Part shown: positions 1,574 to 21,959 of the stretch, one piece after another
Position numbering within the stretch: position 1 is the first letter of the stretch
How the letters are laid out: the number at the start of each line of letters is the position of its first letter
Assembly: GCA_938082505.1 (NCBI GenBank)
Contig: CALLLH010000029.1
Span: forward strand, 1-55,880
Direction of reading: 5' to 3'
DNA: 55,880 nt
DNA from: an uncultured Flavobacteriales bacterium
GTDB lineage: Bacteria; Bacteroidota; Bacteroidia; Flavobacteriales_D; Sanyastnellaceae
The notes under the pieces: model-generated
What the model saw: only the letters and a program-made list of their open reading frames with translations
Told to the model about the DNA's origin: nothing
The model's database searches: none
Program-made: the position numbers and the translations under genes

Positions 1574-4500
1574 ATGAACCGTCTGACCACCCTTCTCCTC
1601 TGCCTTGTTTCCGCGGCTTTCGCCTACGGACAAGATGCCTCGTATGGCCTCTCCGTTGAGGTCATCGCCGAACATGAGACCGGCCTCCTTGCCGGAATGA
1701 CCACCTACCGCGTCTACATGGACTGTGTGTATGCGGATGACATTGTGTCCTCCGTCAGTGGTGATGCCATCTTTCCGATGGACCTCACCACGACCACGTC
1801 GTTCTATCAGGATGCATTGGGCGCGGCCACTCCGAATGCCGTCAACCCCCTGCTGTTCGGGTTTTTTCCCGATCTGGAGTACGACAGCTGGGTGACGGTG
1901 GGCATCTTCCAGCAGCCGAATGGCTCCTTGAATGAAGGCGAGATCAGCACGGTGGAGAGCCCAACCCAATCCTGGGTGCTCCCCTTTGAGTCTGGCGAAA
2001 ACCTGATCATGGACGACGCCACGGGTGGCGCGTGGTTCGTGACGCAGAACTACAGCAATGGACTGGCGGGCGATGATTTGAAGGTGTTGCTCGCACAGCT
2101 CACCACCGACGGCGACATTTCGGGCACTTTGCTCGTGCAGGTCTTTGAACAAGGGGTGGGCGCCTCTGACCTGCGTTTCCACTTGAGTTTCGATGGAACG
2201 AACGGATCCGGAGCTGCGGGCTGCACGGACCCCAATGCCGACAACTACAACTCCGGCGCTGCCGAGGACGACGGTTCCTGTCTCTATGGCGGATGCACCG
2301 ATGCCGCGGCGTGCAACTTTGACGCCACTGCCAACGACGACGATGGCAGCTGTACTTATGCCGACCCATTCCGCAATTGCGATGGCAACTGTCTGTCCGA
2401 CACGGACGGCGATGGATTCTGCGATGAGGAGGAAGTCTCCGGTTGTACCGACGAGACCGCTTGGAACTACGATGCCGCCGCCACCGAAGAGGATGGGGGC
2501 TGTATTTATTTCAACGCCTGCGGTATCGATGCGGATGCGGTCGTGATGGTCAGCAGTTTCGACTATGACCCGGGCATCCTCAACCTCGATGTAGGTGCCA
2601 CCGTGGTCTGGGTCAATGTGGGAGGATTGCACAACGTCAACGCCACCACGAACCAGCTGACGGGCCAGCCCTTCAACAACCCCCAGCCCTTCACGATTCC
2701 GGCGGTGCTCGGTTCTCCTCAGGGCACGTGCCTCGGGTCCTTCACGTTCTCGGTTCCCGGCATCTACAATTACAACTCTTCGGTTTCCAACCAGGCTTCC
2801 CTCGGCATGGTGGGCACCATCGTCATCGGCACAGGTGGCTGCATGGATGCCGACGCCACGAATTATGACGCCACGGCGGAATTCGATGATGGCAGCTGCA
2901 TCTTCTCAGGTTGTACCGACAATACCGCCAGCAACTACGATCCCAACGCCCAGATCGACAACGGCACCTGCCTCTATCCCGGCTGTACGGATCCCGAAGC
3001 GGCGAACTATGACGCCACGGCCAACGACAACGACGGTTCCTGCCTCTATCTGGGGTGTACCGATGCTGCCGCCGCCAATTTTGATGATGCCGCCAACACT
3101 GACGATGGATCCTGCATCTACCTCGGTTGTACGGACCCGACGGCCTGCAATTATGACGCTACGGCCGATACGGATGACGGCAGCTGCCTCGATGCCCTCG
3201 GCACCTTTGGGTTGGATTACCTCGATTGCGACGGCAATTGCCTGAATGATGCCGATGCCGATGGCGTCTGCGATGAGGACGAAATTCCCGGCTGTGACGA
3301 TACGGCCGCCTGCAACTACGATGCCGCGGCGACCGACAATGACGGTACCTGCGATTACTGTACCTGCTCCGGTGGCGGAGGGGACACCACCTGGGTGGTG
3401 GGGGACACGTTGACCCGCCTCACGTTCACGGACGATACGATGGGTTATGCCCTCGACGTCGATTGGGTGACCACCCACACCTCCGGTGTCCTCGATGGCC
3501 TGTCCACGTACCGCCTGTATCTGGTGGTGAACGATGCCAGCGATAAGCTCAGCTCATGCTATGGCAACGTCACAAATCCGCTGGTCATTGAATCCACGAC
3601 CGGATTCCACCAGGATCCGATCGGCAGCACCTTCGGCACGGGCATCAATCCGTTGCTCCTGCCTGCCTTCCCGGACATCGCCTATGACAGTTGGGTGACC
3701 ATCGGCCTCGATGGTTCTCCCGGCCCCGGATACAGCAGCATCCAAAGTGCTCAGAGCCCCAACCAGAATTGGATCGCCAGTTTTGACGCGGGCGGAGAAT
3801 TGCGCATGGACGACGCCGTGGGCGGCGCTTGGTTTGTCACTTCCTCCAACCTCAACGGGGTGCCGGATGCGGACCTGCGGGTCCTCGTAGCCCAGTTCTC
3901 GACTTCCGGAGTCGTATCCGGATCGTTGCCTGTCCAGGTCTTCCCGTTTGGTGATGGATCCAATGAGGAGCGTGCGGCTTTCACCTTCACTACGGAAGGG
4001 CTTGGTCAGCCAGAGCTGACCGCTGTGGTCGGAACGGGCGGCGACGGAGGCAACAGCTGCGGCTGTACCGACCCTGCCGCGGACAACTACGACGCGACGG
4101 CGGACTTCGAGGACGGCACCTGCCTGTTCTTCGGATGCACCAGTCCGAATGCCTTGAACTTCGATGCCGGCGCCAATGCGGACGATGGTTCCTGCGTCAT
4201 CCCGGGATGTACCAACCCGCTCGCCGACAACTATGACGCGGAGGCCAACCAGAACGACGGTTCCTGCATCCTGAGTGGTTGCACCTACTCGGACGCAGCC
4301 AACTACGACCCCACCGCCAACAACGATGACGGCTCCTGCATCTATTACGGATGTACGGACCCCGGGGCGGACAACTTCGATCCCACGGCCAATGCGGACG
4401 ACGGTGGATGCATGTACCTCGGTTGTACGGACCCGGAGGCCAACAATTACGATGCCGGCGCCAACCAGAACGACGGCACCTGTGAATACCTCGGATGCAC

Positions 4501-7500
4501 CATTCCGGTCGCCTCGAACTTCGATCCCGATGCCAACGTCGATGATGGCAGCTGCCAATTCCCCGGCTGCACCGATCCCAACGGCACCAATTATGACCCG
4601 ACGGCCAATGTGGACGACGGCTCCTGCATCCTCGAGGGCTGTCTCGACCCCGGGGCTTCCAACTATGACGCCGGTGCCAACACCGATGATGGCAGCTGCA
4701 CCTATCCCGGCTGCACGGATACCGGCGCGTCCAATTTCGATCCCGCGGCCAACCTCGATGACGGCACCTGCTTGTTCCCGGGCTGTCTCGACAGCGATGC
4801 GGTGAACTACGATGCCGGAGCCAATGTGGATGACGGTTCCTGCCAATACGGTGGATGTGTCGATCCCGAGGCGTCGAACTATGACCCCACGGCGGATCTG
4901 GACGATGGCACCTGCATCTACCCCGGTTGTACAGATGCTGCTGCGTCGAACTACGACCCGAATGCCAACCAGGCCGACGGTTCCTGCCTGTACCCGGGCT
5001 GCACTGACGAAACTGCGGTCAACTATGACGTGATCGCCAATGACGACGATGGTTCCTGTCTGTTTGGGGGGTGCCTCGATCCCGGAGCCTGCAACTATGA
5101 CGTCACGGCCGATCTGGAGGACGGTTCCTGTACCTACCCCTCGTCCATCTACTTGGATTGTGATGGCAACTGCCTGAACGATGCTGATGGTGACGGCGTT
5201 TGTGATGAAGACGAATTCAGTGGGTGTACCGACCCGACGGCCTGCAACTACGATGCCGGCATGACGGAGGATGACGGCAGCTGCGATTATTGTTCCTGTG
5301 CCTCGGAAGGCACTGCGGGACTCGATGTGCTGGACTACTCGACCGACCAACCCGGATACGGACTGCGCCTCGAGCGGGTGCAGGACCATGTCGGTGGTCC
5401 GCTGGATGGCATGACCACCTGGCGCATCAGTGCGGTGGTGTCCCATGCAGACGACCAGCTGTCCAGTGCCTACGGCAATGAAGAGCTGCCTTTGCAGATT
5501 GCCTCTACAGCCCCCTTCTACCAGGACCCGTTCGGCTCCACTTTCGCCAGCGGCGTGAATCCGCTGCTGCTCCCGGCTTTCCCGGATCTCGCCTTTGATT
5601 CTTGGGTGACCATCGGTGTCGATGGGACGCCCGATGCTGGAGCGGGTGAGGGGGCCATCCAAAGTGCACAGAGTCCCAACCAGAACTGGATCATCGGATT
5701 CGATTCCGGAGGAGAAATCCTGATGGACGATCCGACCGGTGGTGCCTGGTTTGTCACCAATGTCTACACCAACGGCATTGCCGGGGATGACCTGACGGTG
5801 CTCCTCGGTCAGTTCACTACGGCAGGGGAGATGACCGGCACCCTGAATTACCAGATCTTCGTCCAGGGCGACGGTACGAACGACGTGCGGGCGACCGCCA
5901 GCTTCTCCACGGCAGATATGGCGGGTACGCCGGGTCCGGCTTGCGGCTGTACGGATGCTTCGGCGGACAATTACGATGCCACCGCCGTCCATGATGACGG
6001 TTCCTGTGAGACTGCAGGATGCACGGATTCCGCGGCGGACAACTTCAACGCTTCGGCCAACGTGGACGACGGTTCCTGCGTCTTCAGCGGATGTACCGAC
6101 TCCGCGGCCTTCAACTACGACCCCGCCGCCAATTCGGACGACGGCACCTGCATCTACTTCGGCTGTACGAATCCCGATGCCGAGAACTATGACCCCCAGG
6201 CGAATTTCGACAACGGTTCCTGTGTGATCCTCGGTTGCACCATTTCCGGTGCTGAGAACTACGATCCGCAAGCGACCGACAACGATGGGTCCTGCATTTT
6301 CGCCGGCTGCATGAACCCCGATGCGAGCAACTACGACCCCCTCGCGACCATCGATGATGGCTCCTGCGTCGTGCCCGGTTGCACGAACCCCGATGCGACC
6401 AACTACAACCCCGACGCCACCTTCAACAACGGCACCTGTGTGTTCTTTGGCTGCACCGATGTGGCGGCGTGCAATTTCGATGCCCTCGCCCTGACCGACG
6501 ATGGCAGCTGTGTCTATCCGTTGGACCTCTATGAATCCGCGGAGTACGACTGCAACGGCGACTGCCTGGTCGACACGGACGGCGACGGCATCTGTGACGC
6601 CTTCGAGGTTCCGGGTTGTACCGATTGGTTGGCCTGCAACTATACGGGCGCCACCGACGACGATGGTTCCTGCGAGTACACGTCCTGCGCCGGATGCGAT
6701 GACCCCGAAGCGGACAACTATGACGCGACGGCTTTGATTCCCGACAGCGGCCTCTGTGAATACTTTGGTTGCACCAATGCTGCGGCGGACAACTTTGATG
6801 CCGGTGCCAACGTCGACGACGGGTCCTGTCTCTTCAGCGGTTGTACGGACCCCGATGCGGACAACTACGATCCGCAGGCCAATGTGGACACCAACTGCAT
6901 CTACCTCGGCTGTGTGAACCCCGCCGCGGACAACTATGACCCGACCGCCAATACCAACGACGGCTCCTGTGTCTTCAGCGGCTGCACCGATCCCGAGGCG
7001 GACAACTACGATCCCCAAGCCAATTCGGATTCGAACTGCATCTACCTCGGATGCCTCGATGCCACGGCTTCCAACTTCGACCCCTCGGCCAACACGGACG
7101 ACGGTTCCTGTGCTTACCTCGGCTGTACTGACGGTGGTGCATGCAACTACGATGCCGATGCCAATGCCGATGATGGCAGCTGCACCTATCCCGACTCGTC
7201 CAGTTTGGACTGCAATGGCGATTGCCTTCAGGATACGGACGGTGATGGCGTCTGCAACCCCGATGAGGTGGCCGGCTGCCTCGTGCCCGGAGCGTGCAAC
7301 TACGACCCTAACGCCACGGATGGCGGTGTGGTCTGCGATTACTCATCCTGCGCGGGCTGTACGGACCCTACGGCCGACAACTATGATCCCACGGCCACGT
7401 TGCCGAGTGGAAACTGCCAGTACCTGGGTTGTACGGATGCCACGGCGGACAATTTCTCGCCCGGAGCCAATGTGGACGATGGCAGCTGTTCCTTCGGAGG

Positions 7501-10500
7501 CTGCACCGATCCCGCGGCCTACAACTATGACGACAACGCTTCTGCCGATGACGGTTCCTGCCTCTATGCGGGTTGCGTGGATCCCGACGCGTGCAACTTC
7601 GACCCCGAGGCCGATACGGACGATGGTACCTGTACCTATCCCGCTCCCGAATACAACTGCCTCGGATACTGCCTGCAGGACTATGATGGAGATGGTGTTT
7701 GCGATCCCTTCGAAACCTCGGGATGCACGGCGCCTTCCGCCTGCAACTATGACCCGGCCGCGACCGAGAACAACGGCACATGTGAATGGATCTCCTGTGT
7801 GGGCTGTACTGATGCTGCGGCGGACAATTACGTCCCGACGGCGGTGACGGATGATGGCTCTTGTGAATTCGGAGGGTGCACCGATCCGTCAGCCGTGAAC
7901 TATGAGACCCAGGCGACGTACAATGACGGCAACTGCCTGTATGCCGGCTGCCTCGACAATGGCGCATGCAACTTCACGGCGGGCGCCAACTTCAATGATG
8001 GCTCCTGCGAATACCTGTCCTGCGCAGGCTGTATGATTACGATCGCGTGCAACTACGATCCTACGGCGTCCATCTTCAGTTCAGAGGTGTGCGACTTCAG
8101 CTCCTGCTGTGGCGACCCCGCTGCGGACAACTACGATCCGGGCATCTCCTCGTTCCTCGTGGACGGCTGTGTGTACGGCGGCAGCCCAGGCTCTGTGAGC
8201 GGTGTTGGCTGTGACCTGCCGTTCGCCTGCAACTTCGGCGACCCGGTCAACGATTGCGAATTCGAATCCTGTGCGGGCTGCCTCGAGGATGGCGCGTGCA
8301 ATTATGATCCCGACGCCACCTTGGCCATCACGTGTCTCTATCCCGAGGACCTCTATGACGTGGACTTTGTCGATTGCGACGGCGGATGCCTCAATGACTC
8401 GAACGGCAACGGCCTGTGTGACGAGATCGAGCCCGCAGGCTGTACCGACCCCGCGGCATGCAATACCTCCCTGACGGCCTCATTCGACGACGGTTCCTGC
8501 GAGTATGCCAGCTGCGGCGGTTGTACCAATGTGTCCGCGTGCAACTACGATGCGGCCGCGACCTTCAACGACGGATCCTGTGACTTCGCGAGCTGCGCGG
8601 GTTGTTCCAATCCGGTGGCCTGCAACTATGACGCCAACGTCACCATCGAGGACGGTACGTGCATCTACGCCCAACCGGAATACGACTGTGCCGGCAACTG
8701 CTTGGAGGACACGGACGGAGATGGCATCTGTGATGCCTTTGACGAGCCGGTGTTCGGGTGCGATGATGCCTCGGCCTGCAACTTTGATGCACTCGCCACG
8801 GACAACGACGGATCCTGCGACTATTGCTCCTGTTTCATCACGACCTCCGATACCGAAGGGTATGGTGTCGATGTGGAGGTGCACGCGGTGGACGGGGTGC
8901 CCGGCTTCACGACCTACCGCATCTATGCCACGACCGCTGGCCCGACCGACTTCGTCAGTGCCGTGACGGGATGGACGGGTACGCCCCTTGAGGTCAGCAC
9001 CACGGGTACATTCTGGCAGAGTGGCGTCGGGGGTGTCACGCCTTCGGTGATCACGGATTTGTTGATCGGCTTCATTCCCGACCTGGCTTATGACAGCTGG
9101 GTGACGGTGGGACTGGACCACAAGGCGAATGCTTCAGCAGGAGAGGAGGATGCGGCCACCGTTTCCGGCATCTCACCCAGCTGGACCGTGGCTTTTGAGG
9201 ATGGAGGAGACATCCAGATCAACGACGGAACCGGTGGGGGATGGTATGTGCTCAACTCGGCCGTCAATGGTGTGGCGGGCGATGACCAGCGTGTCCTGCT
9301 CGGCCAGTTCACCACGGATGGCGATTTGAGCGGCAGCATGCGCATCCAGGTGTTCCCCGATGGGGATACCCAGATGGATTTGCGCTACGTCGCGACGTTC
9401 GGAGCGCCCGACTGCGGGTGCACCGATCCCAGCGCCCTCAACCCCGATCCCAATGCTGCCTATGACGATGGCAGTTGTGAGTATCCGGGCTGTACCGATC
9501 CTACCGCTGACAATTACGATGCCGGTGCCGATGTGAACGACGGCAGTTGCCTCTACAGCGGATGTACCGACCCCGCGGCAGACAACTACGATCCGCAGGC
9601 GACGATTTTCGATGGCAGTTGCCTCTTCTTTGGCTGCACTGATCCGCTGGCCGGCAATTACGATCCCCTCGCCAACACCAATGATGGCTCCTGTGATTAC
9701 GCGGGGTGCACTTCGCCGACGGCCGCGAACTACAACCCGACGGCCACGGTGGACGACGGTTCCTGCCTCTTCGAAGGGTGTACCGATTCCTCGGCGGCCA
9801 ATTTTGACCCCGGTGCCAACAGCGATGACGGTACCTGCCTGTTCCTGGGCTGCACGAATCCGGCGGCGGACAACTTCGATCCCGGTGCCAACCTCGACAA
9901 TGGATCCTGTGTGGTGTCCGGCTGTACCGATGAGGCGGCCGACAACTTCGACAGTGGGGCCAACAACGAGGATGGTTCCTGCCAGTACCTCGGCTGTACC
10001 GATGTGACGGCGGACAACTTCGATGCTGACGCCAATGCCGACGACGGCTCCTGCCTCTTTGGCGGATGCACCCAGATGGGCGCCTGCAACTACGATCCAT
10101 CGGCCAACAATGACGATGGCACCTGTACGTTCCCCGAGGACCTCTTCGGTGCCGACAATGTCGACTGTGCCGGTGTGTGCATCAACGATACCGATGGCGA
10201 TGGCGTGTGCGATGAGGACGAAATCCTCGGCTGCACGGATTCCGGAGCGTGCAACTACGATGCTTCCGCCACGGATGAGGACGGCAGCTGTGAGAGCCTG
10301 TCCTGTTCCGGTTGCACGGATGCAGCTGCGGACAACTACGACGCCACGGCCACCATCGATGATGGTTCCTGCATCCTGAGCGGTTGCACATACCCGACGG
10401 CGACCAACTACAATGCCGATGCTACGGTGGAAGATGGCTCCTGTACGTTCGGGGGCTGCACGAACCCTGCGGCCATCAACTACAGCGCCCTTGCCGATGT

Positions 10501-13500
10501 GGACAACGGCAGCTGCATCCTGCTCGGTTGTACCGATCCGGCGGCCATCAACTTTGACCCGGACGCCACCCTCGACGACAACTCCTGTCAGGTGTACGGC
10601 TGTACGAACCCGCTTGCGGTCAACTTCGCCTCCAATGCGGTCATCGACGACGGCAGCTGCATCATCGCAGGTTGCACCAACCCGTTGGCCATCAACTACA
10701 GCGCTCTTGCAACCATAGACAATGGTTCCTGCATCGTGCTGGGTTGCACCAACCCGGCGGCAGACAACTATGAGGCGGGCGCCAACATCGACGATGGTTC
10801 CTGCGTCATCGGTGGCTGCACGCTGTCCTTCGCCACGAACTACAATCCGGCGGCTTCCTATGACGATGGCAGTTGCATCATCTACGGATGTACCGATCCC
10901 GTGGCCTTGAACTTCAATTTCCTCGCCACGCTGGACAACGGCAGCTGCCTGTTTGCCGGTTGCATGGATCCCGAAGCGGACAACTACAACCCCGATGCCA
11001 CTTTCGATACCGGAATCTGTACCTATCTGGGCTGTACCGATGCCAGCGCGGCGAACTACGATGCCGGTGCCAACAGCGATGACGGTTCTTGCCTTTACCC
11101 CGGCTGCACGGATGCTTCAGCCTCGAACTTCGATGCCGGTGCCAATGCGGACGACGGCAGCTGTGTCTATCTGGGCTGCACGGATGCGTCTGCCTGCAAT
11201 TTCGATGCTGCCGCCAATGAGGACGATGGTTCCTGTGATTTCGCATCCTGTCTCGGATGTACCGATGAGGCGGCGTGTGATTACGATGCCGAGGCGACCC
11301 AGGATGACGGTTCCTGCAGCTATCCTGTCGACCTCTACGGTGTCGCCTGGTTGGATTGTGCCGGTGCCTGTCTGAATGACGCCGATGTAGATGGCGTCTG
11401 CGATGAGGAGGAGGTGCCCGGTTGCACGAATCCGATTGCTGTGAACTTCGATTCGGCCGCTACAGATGAGGACGGTTCCTGCCAGATCGAGGGTTGTACC
11501 GATACGACGGCATCCAATTTCGATGCTGGGGCCAACCTCGATGACGGTTCCTGCCTGTATCCGGGTTGCACGGATGTGGAGGCGGACAACTTCGATTCCG
11601 GCGCCAACACCGACGATGGCTCCTGCCTGTATTTCGGATGCACCGATGCCGGTGCCGACAACTTCGATGCCGGTGCCAACTCCGATGATGGCTCCTGTCT
11701 GTATCACGGGTGTACCGATGCGGAGGCCGACAACTACGATGCCGGCGCCAACTTCGACGATGGATCCTGCCTGTACCATGGTTGCATGGACACAGAGGCC
11801 GACAACTACGATGCCGGCGCCAACTTCGACGACGGATCCTGCCTGTACCACGGTTGCACGGACCCGGAGGCCGACAACTACGACGTCGGGGCCAACTTCG
11901 ATGACGGTTCCTGCCTGTACTATGGCTGTATCGATGGGGAGGCGGACAACTATGATGCCGGTGCCAACTTCGATGACGGCACTTGCGAGTACTTCGGTTG
12001 CACTGATCCTGCAGCGTCCAACTATGATGCCGGAGCCAATGTGGAGGACGGCTCCTGTACCTACCCCGGTTGTACGGATGCCTTCGCTGACAACTACGAC
12101 CCGGGCGCCAACCTGGAGGATGGCAGCTGCCAGTACCTGGGTTGCACGGATTCCGCGGCCATCAACTATGACGACTTCGCCAATGTGGACGATGGTACTT
12201 GTCTTTTCCTCGGCTGTACCGACCCCGAGGCGGACAACTATGACCCCAATGCGAACTACGACAGTGGGGCCTGCGAATACCTCGGATGCACAAACCCGAA
12301 TGCGGACAACTACGACCCCGATGCCAACGTGGATGACGGTTTCTGCGTGTTGATGGGCTGTACCGATCCCGAGGCGGCCAACTATGATGCCGAGGCCAAC
12401 ACGAACGATGGAACCTGTCTGTATGGCGGCTGCATCGATCCGGCCTACCTCGAATACGATGCGACGGCGGATGTCGATGATGGATCCTGCGTCAACCTGA
12501 TTGTGGAGGGCTGCACCGACCCTGGATTCACCGAGTTCGATTCGGCGGCCAATGTCGATGACGGTTCCTGTGCCACTGCGGTGGTGGAGGGCTGCACGGA
12601 CCCGAATTTCCTCGAATATGACCCGAACGCGAATACGTTCGATGGCTCCTGTGCCACACCGGTCATTGAAGGATGTATGGACCCGGATTATATCGAATAC
12701 GTGGCGGAAGCCAACACCGACGATGGTTCGTGCACCAATCTGGTGGTCTTCGGTTGTACCGATGCCGGATTCCTCGAATTCGATGCCGCGGCCAATACGG
12801 AGGACGGTTCCTGTGCCACCCCCGTGGTGCTGGGCTGCCTCGAGCCGGGGGCCTGCAACTTCAATGCGGATGCCAATACATTGGATACCTGTGACTACCC
12901 GATTGACCTCTATGGTGTGGACCATGTCGACTGTGATGGCCAATGCTTCAACGACAGCGACGGAGACCAGGTCTGTGATGAGGACGAGGTGCCGGGCTGC
13001 ATGGACGATACCGCGGTCAATTACGATGCCGCTGCGACCGACGAGGATGGCAGCTGCCTCTATGGAGGATGCACCAACAATCAGTACCTCGAGTTCGACA
13101 TCGACGCCGATGTGGACGATGGTTCCTGTACCACGCTGATCGAGCTCGGTTGCACCGATCCCGATTACATCGAGTACAACCCGTTCGCCAACCTGGACAA
13201 CGGCACCTGCCTGACGCTCATCGTATACGGTTGTATCGATCCTGCGGCCTGCAACTACAGTGGCGGATACAACACCGATGACGGAAGCTGCATCTACGCG
13301 GAGGACATTTACGGCAGCAGCTTCGTGGACTGTTATGGTGCCTGCCTGAACGATGTCGACGGAGACGGTGTGTGCGATGAGAACGAGGTGACCGGTTGTA
13401 CGGACCCAGAGGCCTGCAACTACAGTCCGAGCATCACCGAGGATGACGGAAGTTGCGATTACTGTTCCTGCTATGAGCCTGAAGTGGTGCCCGGTCCTGA

Positions 13501-14746
13501 TACCCTGTACTTCGAAAGTGACAGTGCGGGATACGGTGCCAAGCTTGTTCGCCTTGTGGAGCATGATGCCGGCGACCTTGCGGGCATGACGACCTATCGC
13601 TTGTACATCACCACGCAGACTGCGGATGACAAACTGTCCAGTGTCTTTGGAAACGGCGACCTTCCGCTCAACCTCAACACGTCCACGACGTGGTACCAGG
13701 ATCCGATCGGCTCCAACTACGGCTCGTCCATCAATCCGCTCCTCTTTGCGGTAATTCCGACACTCCCGTATGACAGCTGGGTGACGATCGGCATCGACCA
13801 GGTGCCCAACCTCGCCCTCGGTCAAGGGGAAGTCCAGGGTGTCAGCAGTCCGGGCCAGAACTGGCTTGCGGCCTTCTCGGCCGGAGGCGGTATCGACATC
13901 GATGACGCTACGGGTGGTGCTTGGTTCGTGACCAATGATGTGACCAATGGCATTGCCGGTGACGGTCTGGACATTCTCGTCGGCCAATTCACCACGGACG
14001 GTGTCGTCACGGGTACGGTCAACTTCCAGCTTTTCTTGGAGGGCGATCCCAACGTGGACATCCGTCCTTCGGTCAGCTTCTCTTCGGAGGGCATGGCCTC
14101 CAGCCTGCTCTCGTTGTGCGGTTGTACGGTCGAGGGTGCGGAGAACTACGATCCGAATGCCCTCTATGACGATGGATCCTGCCTCAGCGGTCCGGGCTGC
14201 ACGTATTCCACGGCGTCGAATTACGATCCGAACGCGGGGTATGATGACGGATCCTGTCTCTTCGAGGGGTGCACGGTGGATTACTTCCGCAACTACACGA
14301 CCTATGCCAATGTCGACGCCGGCAACTGCAGCGATGCGCCGCCTTGTCCCGACTCCAATGGTGACGGTATGATCGGTGCGTTGGAGCTGACTGACCTGCT
14401 GGTCTTCTACAACACCGATGGAGGTGGGTGTGGCATCTTCACCGCGTTGTCGCCGGCCGAAATGGGGGTGCTCCCCTGTGCTTTCCCCGGCGCGGAGTGT
14501 GGCGAGACAGGATGCATCTATCCCAATGCGGTCAACTACGATCCGAGCGCCATCGAGGATGATGGTTCATGCTACTGGAGCGGTTGTACCGATCCGGCGA
14601 TGCAGAACTACCAGCCGCTGGCCAACCTCGACGATGGCACCTGCGTGGCCCCCATTTGCTGGGACTTCGACTTCAACGGCTCCGTGGGCATCCAGGACCT
14701 CCTGGACCTCTTGTTGCTGTTCAACTCATCCTGCGGAGCGGAATGA
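1574..14746 (+). CDS. Giant secreted cysteine-rich repeat protein (GCTD-repeat/TSP3-like/dockerin-like)
   Basis: A 4390-residue protein. The ATG at 1574 is chosen because it begins a Sec signal peptide (hydrophobic core, cleavage after AFAYG); a TTG nine codons upstream would bury it. In order: large domain copy 1 (about residues 20-208); GCTD units; a cupredoxin fold (about 315-421) without copper Cys/His; large domain copies 2 (about 621-812), 3 (1260-1451), 4 (2427-2611) and 5 (3985-4176); and two dockerin-like EF loops (about 4256-4280 and 4361-4390). Between them lie about 113 GCTDPxAxNYDxxAxxDDGSC units by hand count and 12 loops of the type CDGNCLNDADGDGVCDEDE, resembling thrombospondin type 3 calcium sites. 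The large domain is marked by YDSWVTxG, SPxQxW and DDxTGGAWFVT. Cysteines number well over 250. I know GCTD repeats as recurrent in marine Bacteroidota surface proteins, with no established function. No type IX sorting domain is visible. A calcium-stabilised, disulfide-linked surface rod or adhesin is inference. Confidence 0.9.
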   Translation: MNRLTTLLLCLVSAAFAYGQDASYGLSVEVIAEHETGLLAGMTTYRVYMDCVYADDIVSSVSGDAIFPMDLTTTTSFYQDALGAATPNAVNPLLFGFFPDLEYDSWVTVGIFQQPNGSLNEGEISTVESPTQSWVLPFESGENLIMDDATGGAWFVTQNYSNGLAGDDLKVLLAQLTTDGDISGTLLVQVFEQGVGASDLRFHLSFDGTNGSGAAGCTDPNADNYNSGAAEDDGSCLYGGCTDAAACNFDATANDDDGSCTYADPFRNCDGNCLSDTDGDGFCDEEEVSGCTDETAWNYDAAATEEDGGCIYFNACGIDADAVVMVSSFDYDPGILNLDVGATVVWVNVGGLHNVNATTNQLTGQPFNNPQPFTIPAVLGSPQGTCLGSFTFSVPGIYNYNSSVSNQASLGMVGTIVIGTGGCMDADATNYDATAEFDDGSCIFSGCTDNTASNYDPNAQIDNGTCLYPGCTDPEAANYDATANDNDGSCLYLGCTDAAAANFDDAANTDDGSCIYLGCTDPTACNYDATADTDDGSCLDALGTFGLDYLDCDGNCLNDADADGVCDEDEIPGCDDTAACNYDAAATDNDGTCDYCTCSGGGGDTTWVVGDTLTRLTFTDDTMGYALDVDWVTTHTSGVLDGLSTYRLYLVVNDASDKLSSCYGNVTNPLVIESTTGFHQDPIGSTFGTGINPLLLPAFPDIAYDSWVTIGLDGSPGPGYSSIQSAQSPNQNWIASFDAGGELRMDDAVGGAWFVTSSNLNGVPDADLRVLVAQFSTSGVVSGSLPVQVFPFGDGSNEERAAFTFTTEGLGQPELTAVVGTGGDGGNSCGCTDPAADNYDATADFEDGTCLFFGCTSPNALNFDAGANADDGSCVIPGCTNPLADNYDAEANQNDGSCILSGCTYSDAANYDPTANNDDGSCIYYGCTDPGADNFDPTANADDGGCMYLGCTDPEANNYDAGANQNDGTCEYLGCTIPVASNFDPDANVDDGSCQFPGCTDPNGTNYDPTANVDDGSCILEGCLDPGASNYDAGANTDDGSCTYPGCTDTGASNFDPAANLDDGTCLFPGCLDSDAVNYDAGANVDDGSCQYGGCVDPEASNYDPTADLDDGTCIYPGCTDAAASNYDPNANQADGSCLYPGCTDETAVNYDVIANDDDGSCLFGGCLDPGACNYDVTADLEDGSCTYPSSIYLDCDGNCLNDADGDGVCDEDEFSGCTDPTACNYDAGMTEDDGSCDYCSCASEGTAGLDVLDYSTDQPGYGLRLERVQDHVGGPLDGMTTWRISAVVSHADDQLSSAYGNEELPLQIASTAPFYQDPFGSTFASGVNPLLLPAFPDLAFDSWVTIGVDGTPDAGAGEGAIQSAQSPNQNWIIGFDSGGEILMDDPTGGAWFVTNVYTNGIAGDDLTVLLGQFTTAGEMTGTLNYQIFVQGDGTNDVRATASFSTADMAGTPGPACGCTDASADNYDATAVHDDGSCETAGCTDSAADNFNASANVDDGSCVFSGCTDSAAFNYDPAANSDDGTCIYFGCTNPDAENYDPQANFDNGSCVILGCTISGAENYDPQATDNDGSCIFAGCMNPDASNYDPLATIDDGSCVVPGCTNPDATNYNPDATFNNGTCVFFGCTDVAACNFDALALTDDGSCVYPLDLYESAEYDCNGDCLVDTDGDGICDAFEVPGCTDWLACNYTGATDDDGSCEYTSCAGCDDPEADNYDATALIPDSGLCEYFGCTNAAADNFDAGANVDDGSCLFSGCTDPDADNYDPQANVDTNCIYLGCVNPAADNYDPTANTNDGSCVFSGCTDPEADNYDPQANSDSNCIYLGCLDATASNFDPSANTDDGSCAYLGCTDGGACNYDADANADDGSCTYPDSSSLDCNGDCLQDTDGDGVCNPDEVAGCLVPGACNYDPNATDGGVVCDYSSCAGCTDPTADNYDPTATLPSGNCQYLGCTDATADNFSPGANVDDGSCSFGGCTDPAAYNYDDNASADDGSCLYAGCVDPDACNFDPEADTDDGTCTYPAPEYNCLGYCLQDYDGDGVCDPFETSGCTAPSACNYDPAATENNGTCEWISCVGCTDAAADNYVPTAVTDDGSCEFGGCTDPSAVNYETQATYNDGNCLYAGCLDNGACNFTAGANFNDGSCEYLSCAGCMITIACNYDPTASIFSSEVCDFSSCCGDPAADNYDPGISSFLVDGCVYGGSPGSVSGVGCDLPFACNFGDPVNDCEFESCAGCLEDGACNYDPDATLAITCLYPEDLYDVDFVDCDGGCLNDSNGNGLCDEIEPAGCTDPAACNTSLTASFDDGSCEYASCGGCTNVSACNYDAAATFNDGSCDFASCAGCSNPVACNYDANVTIEDGTCIYAQPEYDCAGNCLEDTDGDGICDAFDEPVFGCDDASACNFDALATDNDGSCDYCSCFITTSDTEGYGVDVEVHAVDGVPGFTTYRIYATTAGPTDFVSAVTGWTGTPLEVSTTGTFWQSGVGGVTPSVITDLLIGFIPDLAYDSWVTVGLDHKANASAGEEDAATVSGISPSWTVAFEDGGDIQINDGTGGGWYVLNSAVNGVAGDDQRVLLGQFTTDGDLSGSMRIQVFPDGDTQMDLRYVATFGAPDCGCTDPSALNPDPNAAYDDGSCEYPGCTDPTADNYDAGADVNDGSCLYSGCTDPAADNYDPQATIFDGSCLFFGCTDPLAGNYDPLANTNDGSCDYAGCTSPTAANYNPTATVDDGSCLFEGCTDSSAANFDPGANSDDGTCLFLGCTNPAADNFDPGANLDNGSCVVSGCTDEAADNFDSGANNEDGSCQYLGCTDVTADNFDADANADDGSCLFGGCTQMGACNYDPSANNDDGTCTFPEDLFGADNVDCAGVCINDTDGDGVCDEDEILGCTDSGACNYDASATDEDGSCESLSCSGCTDAAADNYDATATIDDGSCILSGCTYPTATNYNADATVEDGSCTFGGCTNPAAINYSALADVDNGSCILLGCTDPAAINFDPDATLDDNSCQVYGCTNPLAVNFASNAVIDDGSCIIAGCTNPLAINYSALATIDNGSCIVLGCTNPAADNYEAGANIDDGSCVIGGCTLSFATNYNPAASYDDGSCIIYGCTDPVALNFNFLATLDNGSCLFAGCMDPEADNYNPDATFDTGICTYLGCTDASAANYDAGANSDDGSCLYPGCTDASASNFDAGANADDGSCVYLGCTDASACNFDAAANEDDGSCDFASCLGCTDEAACDYDAEATQDDGSCSYPVDLYGVAWLDCAGACLNDADVDGVCDEEEVPGCTNPIAVNFDSAATDEDGSCQIEGCTDTTASNFDAGANLDDGSCLYPGCTDVEADNFDSGANTDDGSCLYFGCTDAGADNFDAGANSDDGSCLYHGCTDAEADNYDAGANFDDGSCLYHGCMDTEADNYDAGANFDDGSCLYHGCTDPEADNYDVGANFDDGSCLYYGCIDGEADNYDAGANFDDGTCEYFGCTDPAASNYDAGANVEDGSCTYPGCTDAFADNYDPGANLEDGSCQYLGCTDSAAINYDDFANVDDGTCLFLGCTDPEADNYDPNANYDSGACEYLGCTNPNADNYDPDANVDDGFCVLMGCTDPEAANYDAEANTNDGTCLYGGCIDPAYLEYDATADVDDGSCVNLIVEGCTDPGFTEFDSAANVDDGSCATAVVEGCTDPNFLEYDPNANTFDGSCATPVIEGCMDPDYIEYVAEANTDDGSCTNLVVFGCTDAGFLEFDAAANTEDGSCATPVVLGCLEPGACNFNADANTLDTCDYPIDLYGVDHVDCDGQCFNDSDGDQVCDEDEVPGCMDDTAVNYDAAATDEDGSCLYGGCTNNQYLEFDIDADVDDGSCTTLIELGCTDPDYIEYNPFANLDNGTCLTLIVYGCIDPAACNYSGGYNTDDGSCIYAEDIYGSSFVDCYGACLNDVDGDGVCDENEVTGCTDPEACNYSPSITEDDGSCDYCSCYEPEVVPGPDTLYFESDSAGYGAKLVRLVEHDAGDLAGMTTYRLYITTQTADDKLSSVFGNGDLPLNLNTSTTWYQDPIGSNYGSSINPLLFAVIPTLPYDSWVTIGIDQVPNLALGQGEVQGVSSPGQNWLAAFSAGGGIDIDDATGGAWFVTNDVTNGIAGDGLDILVGQFTTDGVVTGTVNFQLFLEGDPNVDIRPSVSFSSEGMASSLLSLCGCTVEGAENYDPNALYDDGSCLSGPGCTYSTASNYDPNAGYDDGSCLFEGCTVDYFRNYTTYANVDAGNCSDAPPCPDSNGDGMIGALELTDLLVFYNTDGGGCGIFTALSPAEMGVLPCAFPGAECGETGCIYPNAVNYDPSAIEDDGSCYWSGCTDPAMQNYQPLANLDDGTCVAPICWDFDFNGSVGIQDLLDLLLLFNSSCGAE
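11636..11995 (+). repeat. Five near-identical 72-nt tandem units within the giant gene
   Basis: Five consecutive units occupy exactly 360 bases (5 x 72). The protein segment NYDAGANFDDGSCLYHGC recurs almost unchanged. Over the shared NYDAGANFDDGSCLYHGC stretch the second and third units (starting 11708 and 11780) differ only at synonymous C/T positions. This contrasts with the diverged rest of the array and points to recent duplication or recombination. Confidence 0.85.
12428..12832 (+). repeat. Five 81-nt variant units (FLEYD subtype) within the giant gene
   Basis: Five consecutive units of exactly 27 codons (405 bases). They replace the usual AxNYD core with an aromatic-x-E-aromatic core (YLEYD, FTEFD, FLEYD, YIEYV, FLEFD) and carry a longer hydrophobic tail (for example NLIVE or TPVVL) before the next GC. 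Two more units of the subtype follow at about 13067-13230. Confidence 0.85.
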
Positions 14747-18357: not shown

Positions 18358-18446
18358 GGGCGAGGAAATAGCGTGGGTTCGAAATTCTACAGTCAGGGTG
18401 GATGATTCCGGGGCATCGGCAACCTTTTTCCCATGTTGTCGGTTCG

Positions 18447-18454
18447 TACTTTGC
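18447..18454 (+). promoter_or_regulatory. Candidate -7 element upstream of the CSLREA protein gene
   Basis: TACTTTGC sits 16 bases before the ATG at 18471 and resembles the Bacteroidota -7 element with one T missing. A T-run (18425-18429) lies near the expected -33 position, but no clean TTG is at the right spacing. Weak evidence. Confidence 0.25.
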
Positions 18455-18470
18455 CACCGCACTGCACTCC

Positions 18471-21400
18471 ATGAAGCGATTCCATCAAGGGCTGACGGCC
18501 GCTCTTTTCACGGCGGTATGCGCACTGCCCGCCTCTGCCCAATTCACGGTCAACGCCACCTTTGATGGCACTGACGCCAATCCCGGCGATGGCAATTGCG
18601 CTACGGCAGGGGGCGATTGCACCTTGCGCGCTGCCCTGCAGGAGGCCGAGGTCAGTGGCGTGGCGACCGAAGTCATCCTGCCCGAAGGCACCTACAGCTG
18701 GGACCTTGGGCAGCTGCTCCTGGATGAGGGGGACATCACCATCAGCGGAGCCGGTGCACGGACCACCATCGTCGATGCGGGCGGTGGTCAGCGGTTCTTC
18801 GAGTTTGACGGCAATGCCACCCTCGTGACCATCCGGGATGTGGAATTCCGGAACGGATTCGACGCCAATGACCCCGGCGGGGCCATCGAGACGGACGCGG
18901 ACCTGCTGTTGCTTGAGCGCGTTGTTTTCAGGAATTGCGTGACGGAGAATGGATTCGGCGGGGCCATCCACAACAGGGAGGACATTGAGGTGCGCGCCAG
19001 CAGTTTCATCGACTGCAAGGCTTTCGGCAACAACGGCGCCTCAGGTGGTGGCGGTGGCGGCGGCGCCCTCGCCGGCGGAGGGGCGATTTCGAGTTGGTCG
19101 CAAACGGGCACCTGGTTGGAGAACTGCACGTTCGTTGGCTGCGAGGCCCACGGCGGCAATGGCGGTAACGGGGGGGGCGGCGGCAGCGGTGGCGATGGCG
19201 GCAATGGCATCGGAACTTTCGGTGGGGGTGGTGATGGCGGAGACATCACTTCTTCCACTTGGGGAGGCAACAATCCCGATGCGGGATCGGCCAGTTTCGG
19301 CGGCGGCGGCGGCGGTGGAGGCATCCTGACTTCTTGGTGGAATACAAGTCCGGGGGATGCGTCCAATGGTTTGGCGCTGGGCGGCGATGGGGGCAATGGC
19401 ACCCTGAATGTGGCCGGCGGCGGCGGCGGCGGTGGTGCCATGGGCGGTGCATTCTTCCTGCGTTCCGGAGATGTCACGGTCCTGCATTGTACCATGAGTG
19501 GCAACGGGGCTTTCGGAGGCAATGGCGGGACATCGCCCGGCAATGCTGGGGAACCCGGCCTCGGCAAGGGAGGGGCGATCGGATGTTTTGATGGCAACGT
19601 AACCTTGGACAACACCATCCTCCATGGCAATGTCGGGGGGGATGCCGGGGGCAATGAGGATCTGTACCACTATTCGGGAGATGAGATCCTCGCCACGGTG
19701 GGGCACAACATCATCGGTGTGGTGGATGCGGATGTCGTTTTTGCTGCAGCTGTCATCGGGAACCAGATCGGGGTGGATCCCATCCTGCTCGGTTTCGGTG
19801 ATTACGGAGGACCAACGGATGCCTTCATGATCAGCGCTTGTGAGCCGTTGAGCCCTGCCATCGACGGGGGCGCGTTGCTCGGCATTGCCGAGGACCAGCG
19901 GGGTGAACCGAGGGACGCGACGCCGGATATCGGCGCCATCGAGGGACCTGCCCCGGTGGACCTGCTTCCCCTGTCCGAAGTGGTCTGTCCGGGAGAGGCC
20001 GTGGAATTGACCTTGACCTGGCCGGACGCCCTCACCACCTGGCCCGATGGGTCGGAGGGAGATACCTGGGAATCCACCGCCATCAGTGGAACCGCGACCA
20101 TCACGACAGCTGAGGGTTGCGAAGAGATCATCAGCATCGACGTCACCGAAGTCATCATTGAGCAGCCGGACCTCGGGCCTGACCAGACGGTATGTCCGGG
20201 GACCATCATCGCTTTGGATGCGGGCAATTCCGGTGCCCAATACAGCTGGAGCACCGGTGGATTCGGACAGGCAGAGCTCGTGGCGGATTCCGGCCTCGTG
20301 GAGGTGCTGGTCGTGGTGAACGGTTGCTCTGCAACGGATGAAATGCAATTGTCCTGGTTTGAGACATACCCCGTCGAACTCGGAGATGATGTGACCCTGT
20401 GTTTCGGGGAGGATGTGACCCTCGATGCCGATGCGCCGGGATGGAGTGGCCTTCCGCCTGTATTCAATTGGCAGGGTGGGCCCAGTGATGCGGAGTACAC
20501 GGTGGACGCCGCCGGGACCTACACGGTGACCGCCACCCTCAATGGATGCATTTCTGTGGATGACGTTCAGGTGACGGAGAGTCCGTTGACCACGGTGGAT
20601 CTGGGATCGGATGAGACCATCTGTCCAGGCGACCCCTTCATCCTCGATCCGAATTACCCGACCGCGGTCTGCACTTGGCAGGATGGTTCAGTCGCGCCGA
20701 CTTACGCCGTGGCGAATACAGGCATCTATACGGTCAATGTGAGCATCGGTGATTGTCAAGCCAATGCGCAGGTCTTCATCGAGGTCGTCCAGGGATTCGA
20801 TGCGGCATTGCCGGAGGTGGTCAATTTCTGTGAAGGGGACAGCGTTTTGCTGCTCGCCGCTTTCGGTGCCTCGAACTACACCTGGCAGAATGGGACCTTG
20901 GGGAATCAGCTGTGGGCGAGTCAACCCGGTATCTATGAGGTCTCATCGGTCGTGGAGGGGTGCGCCTTTTACGATCAGGTCTCGGTGGTCCCGCAACCCT
21001 TGCCGGTATTTGATTTCGGATTGGATATCGTCCTCTGCGAAGGAGAGTCGATCGAACTCGTGCCGGGTGTTCCGGGCGCCGATTATGTCATCTTCAATGA
21101 CAGCCTGAGTACCCCGTCCCTGACCGTGAGCGAGCAGGGGGAGTACGTCGCGGAAGTCGCCTTGGGCGGGTGCACCTACCGGGATACAGTTGGTGTCGAG
21201 GTGCGGCCGATTCCGGAGTTTGCCCTTCCCGAGGATTCCGTGCTCTGTCCCGGCGACGTGTTGATGATCGAGACCGGGTTGTCGGACATTCTGGTGACGT
21301 GGAACACAGGAGAGGTGGGCACGTCCATCGAAGTGAATGAACCGGCCTCGTATGTGGCCACGAGCCAGGTGAGCGGGTGTCAGTTCGTGGATTCCATGGC

Positions 21401-21959
21401 GGTGTCGGTGGCCCAGCCGACTGTGATTCCGCTGTCCGCGGATTACGAGCTCTGCCTGGACGATACCATGCTCCTGAATGTGCTCCAAGGTTCGGATGTC
21501 TACCCGTCGAATTACCGGTGGGACAACGGCAGCATGCTCCCCACGCGGGTCATCGAACGGGGCGGCCTGTATACCGTGGAGGTGTCCAACGTCTGTGACA
21601 CAGTGGAGCATGTGTTCCAGGTGGAGCAATTGATCTGCGGCTGTCAGGTCTATGTCCCCTCCGCATTCACGCCGAACAACGACGGAAAGAACGACGCGTG
21701 GAAGCCGGTTCTGGATTGTGACCCCTATGCCTACCAGGTGACCGTGTGGGACCGGTGGGGCCGTCCGGTGTTCTTTTCGGACAGCCAGGAAGAAGTCTGG
21801 TATGGCCAGGTCGAGGGCACACCGGGTTCCAAGACCCGGGAGAGCGGCCGCTATTTCGCCATTGACGGCGTCTATATGTGGGAGGTCATCATCGAGCTCC
21901 GCAATGACCGGGTCCCCGAGGTCATCCGCCAGAACGGCACTGTGCACGTGCTGCGTTGA
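18471..21959 (+). CDS. CSLREA / choice-of-anchor Q surface protein with eight Ig-like repeats and a type B T9SS sorting domain
   Basis: A 1162-residue secreted protein. The ATG at 18471 begins a signal peptide (ending LPASAQ); an extra 23 codons upstream would mask it. N-terminal section: a CSLREA-type motif (DCTLRAALQEAE) leading into a right-handed beta-helix, interrupted between about residues 190 and 380 by glycine runs. It closes with SPAIDGG and RGEPRDATPDIGAIEG, the choice-of-anchor Q signature. From about residue 505 come eight Ig/PKD-like repeats of about 70-80 residues, each with LGxDxxxCPG and WqdG-type strands and a paired GC. The C-terminal about 100 residues start with VYVPSAFTPNNDGKNDAW and contain WDRWGRPVF: the gliding-motility-associated type B sorting domain, marking it as type IX cargo. 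An adhesin or matrix role is inferred. Confidence 0.88.
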   Translation: MKRFHQGLTAALFTAVCALPASAQFTVNATFDGTDANPGDGNCATAGGDCTLRAALQEAEVSGVATEVILPEGTYSWDLGQLLLDEGDITISGAGARTTIVDAGGGQRFFEFDGNATLVTIRDVEFRNGFDANDPGGAIETDADLLLLERVVFRNCVTENGFGGAIHNREDIEVRASSFIDCKAFGNNGASGGGGGGGALAGGGAISSWSQTGTWLENCTFVGCEAHGGNGGNGGGGGSGGDGGNGIGTFGGGGDGGDITSSTWGGNNPDAGSASFGGGGGGGGILTSWWNTSPGDASNGLALGGDGGNGTLNVAGGGGGGGAMGGAFFLRSGDVTVLHCTMSGNGAFGGNGGTSPGNAGEPGLGKGGAIGCFDGNVTLDNTILHGNVGGDAGGNEDLYHYSGDEILATVGHNIIGVVDADVVFAAAVIGNQIGVDPILLGFGDYGGPTDAFMISACEPLSPAIDGGALLGIAEDQRGEPRDATPDIGAIEGPAPVDLLPLSEVVCPGEAVELTLTWPDALTTWPDGSEGDTWESTAISGTATITTAEGCEEIISIDVTEVIIEQPDLGPDQTVCPGTIIALDAGNSGAQYSWSTGGFGQAELVADSGLVEVLVVVNGCSATDEMQLSWFETYPVELGDDVTLCFGEDVTLDADAPGWSGLPPVFNWQGGPSDAEYTVDAAGTYTVTATLNGCISVDDVQVTESPLTTVDLGSDETICPGDPFILDPNYPTAVCTWQDGSVAPTYAVANTGIYTVNVSIGDCQANAQVFIEVVQGFDAALPEVVNFCEGDSVLLLAAFGASNYTWQNGTLGNQLWASQPGIYEVSSVVEGCAFYDQVSVVPQPLPVFDFGLDIVLCEGESIELVPGVPGADYVIFNDSLSTPSLTVSEQGEYVAEVALGGCTYRDTVGVEVRPIPEFALPEDSVLCPGDVLMIETGLSDILVTWNTGEVGTSIEVNEPASYVATSQVSGCQFVDSMAVSVAQPTVIPLSADYELCLDDTMLLNVLQGSDVYPSNYRWDNGSMLPTRVIERGGLYTVEVSNVCDTVEHVFQVEQLICGCQVYVPSAFTPNNDGKNDAWKPVLDCDPYAYQVTVWDRWGRPVFFSDSQEEVWYGQVEGTPGSKTRESGRYFAIDGVYMWEVIIELRNDRVPEVIRQNGTVHVLR

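Follow-up and report, generated by a model that had tools for sequence, protein, structure and literature searches.

How a giant secreted-looking protein accommodates cysteines that only some of its repeat units carry is the question raised by the locus analyzed here, a stretch of 55,880 nucleotides to which we refer as the window. Its giant GCTD-repeat gene occupies positions 1574..14746 of the plus strand; the reading frame opens at 1550, is uninterrupted up to 14746 (4398 codons), and likely starts at the ATG at 1574. Read from this ATG, the N terminus (MNRLTTLLLCLVSAAFAYGQ) is signal-like by eye, and the protein appears to be secreted. The array proper (2219..14656, plus strand) comprises about 113 units, since our parse gave 112 entries and one of them merges two units. 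Each unit has 24 residues, with the pattern GC....A.NYD..A..DDGSC followed by a tail whose commonest length is three residues, and the array is interrupted by four copies of a domain of about 190 amino acids and by one cupredoxin-like insert. A fifth copy of the domain opens the protein (1616..2182, plus strand), the further copies lying on the same strand at 3419-3985, 5330-5896, 8825-9391, and 13505-14071.

The GCTD repeat reaches the cutoff of no Pfam or NCBIfam model: the whole protein gave a single subthreshold Pfam match (11.6 bits; cutoff, 27) and no NCBIfam match. Its C-terminal units, with EF-hand/dockerin-like acidic segments and flanking cysteines (14267..14743, plus strand), match EF-hand_6 weakly (14.5 bits; cutoff, 25), and the tail past the last GCTD unit holds an even number of cysteines, namely, two. 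Similar two-cysteine C-terminal tails also close relatives, e.g., those at loci L016, L050, and L070. On the minus strand opposite the repeat gene, open reading frames (ORFs) of 1154 and 956 amino acids (3554-7018 and 11117-13987) are probably by-products of the composition of that gene. A large protein encoded nearby (18402-21956) bears CHU_C, a type IX secretion signal domain.

The first-pass annotation had claimed that extra cysteines in this protein are always compensated by others close by, and within the window this observation was confirmed. Unit parsing and inspection by eye gave 26 units with a third cysteine, located at position 8 (Cys8; 25 ACN and one ACD), and all 26 have compensating tail cysteines. 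Twelve of twelve three-cysteine loops occupy the tail of a Cys8 unit; the first such unit (2291..2440, plus strand) has a tail resembling a calcium loop (ACN ... NCDGNC...GFC), and the single ACD unit also has a three-cysteine loop tail (residue 3235, counting from 0 at codon 1550; 11255..11419, plus strand). The remaining 14 Cys8 units end in an SC or TC tail, as does the typical unit at 6614..6691 (plus strand; ACN ... EYTSC), and 4 of the 14 carry DYC[ST]C before an inserted domain of about 190 amino acids. Cys8 recurs in the unit right after the loop in nine of the twelve cases, and the three postloop units without ACN (residues 297, AWN; 3290, AVN; and 3815, AVN) all lack the SC tail, as had been noted. 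The first of these, without Cys8 and with a cupredoxin-like insert (2441..2836, plus strand), has a cysteine in NAC matched by GTC within its own insert. A scripted two-by-two table of the window units (26/1/3/82; Fisher, 5e-21) agrees with this picture when its one "uncompensated" unit (2159) is recognized by eye as an artifact, the parser having split ...CDFSS from CCGD, and one "compensated" entry as a merged pair. The sole module with an odd number of cysteines found in the window is the Cys8 unit at residue 580 taken with its DYCTC tail and inserted domain (3290..4060, plus strand), which has seven because the inserted domain carries SSC.

We then looked in homologues for uncompensated ACN units at chance frequency, the result that the annotation had named as fatal to its claim, and found compensation nearly throughout. 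Among short-tailed Cys8 units, it was present in 163/163 from other stretches of the same genome, in 384/389 from 73 loci of other genomes, in 15/15 and 11/11 from two viral-labeled sets, and in 297/299 from a later sample; over all sets and with long-tailed units included, 1121/1128 Cys8 units had at least one compensating cysteine. The query for other genomes consisted of plain units only, and therefore Cys8 was not selected for. The first exceptions were themselves informative, as after a lone Cys8 the next unit had an extra core cysteine, and the same held for some tail cysteines without Cys8. The rule is therefore one of junctions: Cys8 of unit n, the tail cysteines of unit n, and the extra core cysteines of unit n+1 add up to an even number. 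Of the proposal that two interchangeable module types keep cysteine parity, the parity stands, whereas there are more than two types, and compensation may sit in the next unit. The reading of the covariation as disulfide pairing gains support from the same patterns and is widened to what may be pairing across the junction.

With short tails, 25/3114 junctions were odd in five sets pooled, and junctions with any extra cysteine were even in 702/727. None of 104 was odd in the window (shuffle mean, 33.5), 4/210 in the other stretches of its genome (72.9), 16/1630 in other genomes (592.3), 4/599 in viral-labeled set 1 (31.1), and 1/571 in viral-labeled set 2 (22.5). The rule had been formulated before the viral-labeled sets and the later sample (40 more stretches from genomes of the family) were fetched; the latter gave 16/547 odd (shuffle mean, 270.0), which on reading comprise nine junctions involving nonunits and seven real exceptions. 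Counting within modules left 0, 4, 53, 47, and 24 odd in the window, own genome, other genomes, and viral-labeled sets 1 and 2, respectively, and 60 versus 16 in the later sample; that this count leaves more (53, 47, and 24 versus 16, 4, and 1) follows from the partner being free to lie in the next unit. Where the next core had no extra cysteine, the tail cysteine number was odd in 564/573 short-tailed Cys8 units, and in units without Cys8 it was odd in 10/2446. An odd sum of Cys8 and tail met an odd next-core number 73 times, with 19 and 6 unmatched, versus 16, 76, and 52 in the own-core control. It is thus the next unit's cysteine, not that of the own core, that tracks Cys8 plus tail.

These counts come from a third parser, which replaced a first one and a looser second one, so the parser was revised after the data had been seen. 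The first parser gave 18/1734, 4/210, 4/580 (viral-labeled set 1), and 2/688 (viral-labeled set 2) odd, and the second gave 36/1645 in the other-genome set, which we read as due to false unit starts. The rule was first noted with Cys16, and the counts take any extra core cysteine. Identical junctions entered the tally a single time; the final unit of every ORF and ORFs with fewer than three units were left out, tails over 60 residues were tallied separately, and 34 units that have an extra core cysteine but follow no short junction lie outside the counts. Rows that we read as nonunits remain counted (L037, L070, L083, L090, L246, L298, L300, L301, L313, and L328). From the own genome, in which a unit query had 195 matches, twenty stretches were parsed; the 73 other-genome loci come from the best 80 of at least 563 confirmed stretches, and loci L259-L296 stand outside the parsed sets. 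The later sample omits 219 junctions already seen. Since L021, L050, and L079 come from a contig of the genome to which loci L297-L303 belong, and since the two viral-labeled sets share contigs, neither the later sample nor the viral sets are fully independent.

The paired cysteines occupy few places. Among 3072 junctions, Cys8 pairs with a cysteine two residues before the next GC (tail -2) in 262 and with core position 15 or 16 of the next unit in 22, a tail cysteine, mostly 3 to 5 residues ahead of the next GC, pairs with next-unit core positions 13 to 16 in 42 (40 of them 15/16), and an in-core pair at positions 11 and 14 (NYCxxC) occurs in 15. The coupling is close to absolute in six-residue tails, where both cysteines are present 233 times, Cys8 alone never, the tail cysteine without Cys8 twice, and neither 202 times. 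Links into the next core may follow one another; in the longest run, at L304, 15 consecutive Cys8-to-next-core links join 16 units, and this run opens with a Cys8 unit that has no core cysteine and closes in an SC-tail unit, as the junction rule demands. Such runs obeyed the rule in 104/110 cases, four of the six failures reading as misparsed units. Three-cysteine loops have cysteine spacings of 4 and 10 and then of 7 up to the following G in 238 junctions; reduced loops retain the first cysteine at L068 and the third at L334, which offers Cys8 different candidate partners.

Exceptions exist, and several look real. Seven distinct Cys8 units have no partner (L037, identical in L057; L054; L070; L072; L075; L328; and L330), the only such cases among the Cys8 units counted, and each is the next-to-last unit of a protein from what appears to be a single family. 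Tail cysteines without a partner occur at L011 (twice), L020, L037, L057, L300 (twice), L303, L304, and L330, Cys8 with an even tail at L016 and L068, and lone core cysteines at L065 and L165, with a further breach at L135. Last units, counted apart, were odd in 5/59 short-tailed cases, one of the five being a nonunit. Parity holds for short tails; it does not hold over long inserts or whole proteins. With tails of more than 60 residues, the odd fraction was 1/5, 13/62, 49/206, 25/125, and 24/83 in the window, own genome, other genomes, and viral-labeled sets 1 and 2 (shuffle means, 1.0, 27.6, 104.9, 38.7, and 25.4, the last set having one Cys8 unit only) and 21/132 in the later sample (59.8), such that parity is weak across long inserted domains.

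As for these domains, AlphaFold2 modeled the copy at 5330-5896 of the roughly 190-residue domain with a mean pLDDT of 94.4; the one copy scanned had no Pfam match, and against the PDB the domain gave weak matches only (DUF4466, pilins, and type II cohesins; best E value, 0.011). Copies 1 and 2 (1616-2182 and 3419-3985) have one lone cysteine each, in MDC and SSC, kept in 3/3 and 6/6 orthologous copies checked, and these two cysteines may be bonded to each other; copies 3 to 5 have none by eye. The insert at 2480-2900 resembles plastocyanin/azurin (PF00127; 18.2 bits, below the 21.2 cutoff), with copper ligands that look degenerate by eye.

While the pairing pattern can be seen in the sequences directly, as can its tie to the following unit and not to the own core, disulfide stapling is the best, as yet unproven, reading of the parity, and we consider it highly probable that optional local disulfide staples sit at the unit junctions of a secreted chain of EGF-like modules. 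In this model, the EGF-like modules of the secreted array would be small, a constant GC-SC disulfide would close each of them, and each unit-to-unit junction could bear one optional staple. Its half-cystines would be drawn from Cys8 of unit n, a tail cysteine after unit n, and Cys15/16 of unit n+1, places that would be adjacent at the junction. Tails that resemble calcium loops or are rich in cysteine would give one half-cystine to the staple, and the even remainder would pair among themselves. In an extracellular fiber, the staples may then lock selected joints or make them stiffer.

The cysteines might, however, stay together without pairing at all if an ancestral module with Cys8 and its tail had been copied repeatedly, and it is true that module-type order is nearly identical between orthologues and that many junctions are related copies. 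Inheritance in blocks nevertheless accounts poorly for Cys8 accompanying short tails with 1, 3, 5, or 7 cysteines, with tails even in its absence, or for partners that lie in the next unit, outside their own block. In the six switching homologous columns whose members all have Cys8, the number of tail cysteines is odd throughout, from 1 to 15; among the 27 switching columns, many that have inserts and no Cys8 show a mixture of odd and even states, one mixed column has an odd state, and one, a giant merged column, is uninformative. Furthermore, the SC-tail cores of the window (mean identity, 0.57) are no more alike than its plain cores (0.60), and odd junctions remain few compared with shuffling after clustering at 70% identity (12/520 versus a mean of 234.5 for genomes plus window; 4/226 versus 48.8 for viral-labeled set 1), a step that lessens and does not abolish the kinship of junctions, which are related by descent and not phylogenetically independent. 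We therefore regard block inheritance as a very unlikely source of the pattern.

Chemistry other than disulfides can be envisaged as well, in which the extra cysteines would ligate zinc or Fe-S between units, and CxxC-like pairs (NYCxxCN and DYCSC) are indeed present. The commonest added state is only two cysteines per junction, though (378 junctions, with four in 284), and most complete ORFs have a signal-like start (134/167 in a rough hydrophobicity test), which would place the cysteines in a secreted setting, where disulfides are usual; metal binding thus strikes us as extremely improbable. It is hardly more plausible that secreted proteins simply avoid free cysteines, with partners anywhere, including between chains, and without a local staple. 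Such avoidance would loosely account for parity and for the seven Cys8 units without a local partner, but the compensation is local, uses fixed positions (tail -2 and core 15/16), and tracks the next unit instead of the own core. A whole-protein bias toward even cysteine numbers is absent, 67/134 signal-like complete ORFs being even under a rough signal-peptide cut; with whole-protein parity at 50%, the rule is local, and global avoidance is not its source.

If residue 8 lies against the tail, as stapling would have it, the two might be coupled where extra cysteines are absent. In cysteine-free junctions, residue 8 tends to be D, S, or A with three-residue tails and F, L, or I with five- or six-residue tails, in which V or I mostly stands two residues before the next G. 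Residue 8 was hydrophobic in 148/203 junctions with 5- to 6-residue tails versus 242/1089 with 3-residue tails in the bacterial sets and in 833/948 versus 32/69 in the viral-labeled ones. Of the 21 own-core positions, 7 and 8 are the most informative about tail type. The information on tail type at position 8 is 0.058 bits for the next unit versus 0.108 for the own unit in the bacterial sets and 0.044 versus 0.040 bits in the viral-labeled sets; since residue 8 of the following unit also varies with tail type, lineage confounds this test. The coupling agrees with a contact between residue 8 and the tail and does not prove one.

For the structure itself, we used a five-unit segment (9992..10453, plus strand) in the order plain, Cys8 with loop, Cys8 with SC tail, plain, plain. 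AlphaFold2, with 34 aligned sequences, gave a mean pLDDT of 85.3 and a pTM of 0.43; in ten-residue blocks, pLDDT was 89 to 93 in the outer units, 74 to 84 in the Cys8 unit with SC tail, and 64 to 82 in the loop.

The repeat marks the bacterial family. Arrays of the form GC....A.NY...A..DDGSC are present here, and a GCTD match was found in 61/61 genomes of the family searched, own genome included; in a sample of the phylum, 9/148 genomes matched, namely, the own genome, one listed from the same family, and seven others, which leaves 7/146 without the first two. GCTD arrays also occur on viral-labeled contigs (IMG/VR; L102-L258), some over 200 kb, many with signal-like starts; a PHROG match was obtained for 2/10 neighboring ORFs tested, and the viral label is putative. 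Two further arrays, L032 and L063, lie on contigs filed as Woesearchaeota and Aenigmatarchaeota. In those parts of the open-access literature that we could consult, we found no description of the GCTD repeat or of the cysteine rule.

The junction rule supplies a simple, testable structural rule for a repeat without an above-cutoff Pfam or NCBIfam match, and sequence alone suffices for it to suggest residue contacts from one unit to another. Should the staples prove real, these proteins would be natural repeat chains in which the placement of two cysteines determines how rigid a joint is, which would aid annotation and the understanding of the giant surface proteins of these bacteria and offer a design principle for protein fibers. 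More speculatively, and with rather less than even confidence, we propose that GCTD arrays may be a programmable extracellular fiber in which joint states along the chain encode stiffness in a cysteine code. Joints would be loose (three-residue tail), hydrophobic (five- to six-residue tail), or stapled in three registers, including 15-bond zippers, and the code would be common to the bacterial family and the viral-labeled contigs, on a module that animals have kept as the perforin-2 hinge.

This last idea touches on the nearest solved module, which, going by two weak but agreeing matches, may be the truncated EGF-like one of perforin-2/MPEG1. In a Foldseek search of the five-unit model against the PDB, the best match was perforin-2/MPEG1 (24 columns; rmsd, 0.7 Å; 42% identity; TM, 0.15; E value, 3.3), and all five matches of a sequence profile to the PDB (E values up to 10) were MPEG1, with a best E value of 0.0049; phmmer with window 6416-7000 found no PDB match at E values up to 1. 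One stretch of MPEG1 (PDB 6u23, 6u2j, and others) has nearly the same pattern as the repeat, a likeness for which GCTD...NF....DDGSC would be the mark, and its authors name this region a truncated EGF-like domain and a hinge (PMC6989145; see also PMC7593815). Unlike in the GCTD protein, neither a tandem array nor optional junction cysteines are seen in the matched stretch. Through the hinge module, the bacterial repeat may be tied to an immune pore protein of animals.

The loop tails call to mind a different family, as their acidic signature (D.D.DG.CD) is common to TSP3_bac and EF-hand-type calcium loops (PF18884 and PF00036), and calcium binding there is putative. Only 12 residues align to TSP3_bac, at 15.4 bits with a cutoff of 25, which falls short of TSP3 repeat identity, and the GCTD loop, being inserted into the tail of a unit, is not a TSP3 repeat array. 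Nor are the units classical EGF-like domains, which have six cysteines paired 1-3, 2-4, and 5-6: plain units have two cysteines, Cys8 units with an SC tail have four, and the six of Cys8 units with a loop are spread over unit and loop; no EGF model was among the Pfam matches. EGF-type tandem repeats and other cysteine-rich arrays likewise consist of short, disulfide-closed extracellular units in tandem, mostly with a fixed set of cysteines per unit. In GCTD arrays, by contrast, each junction can have one optional pair, which may occupy interchangeable places, also across units.
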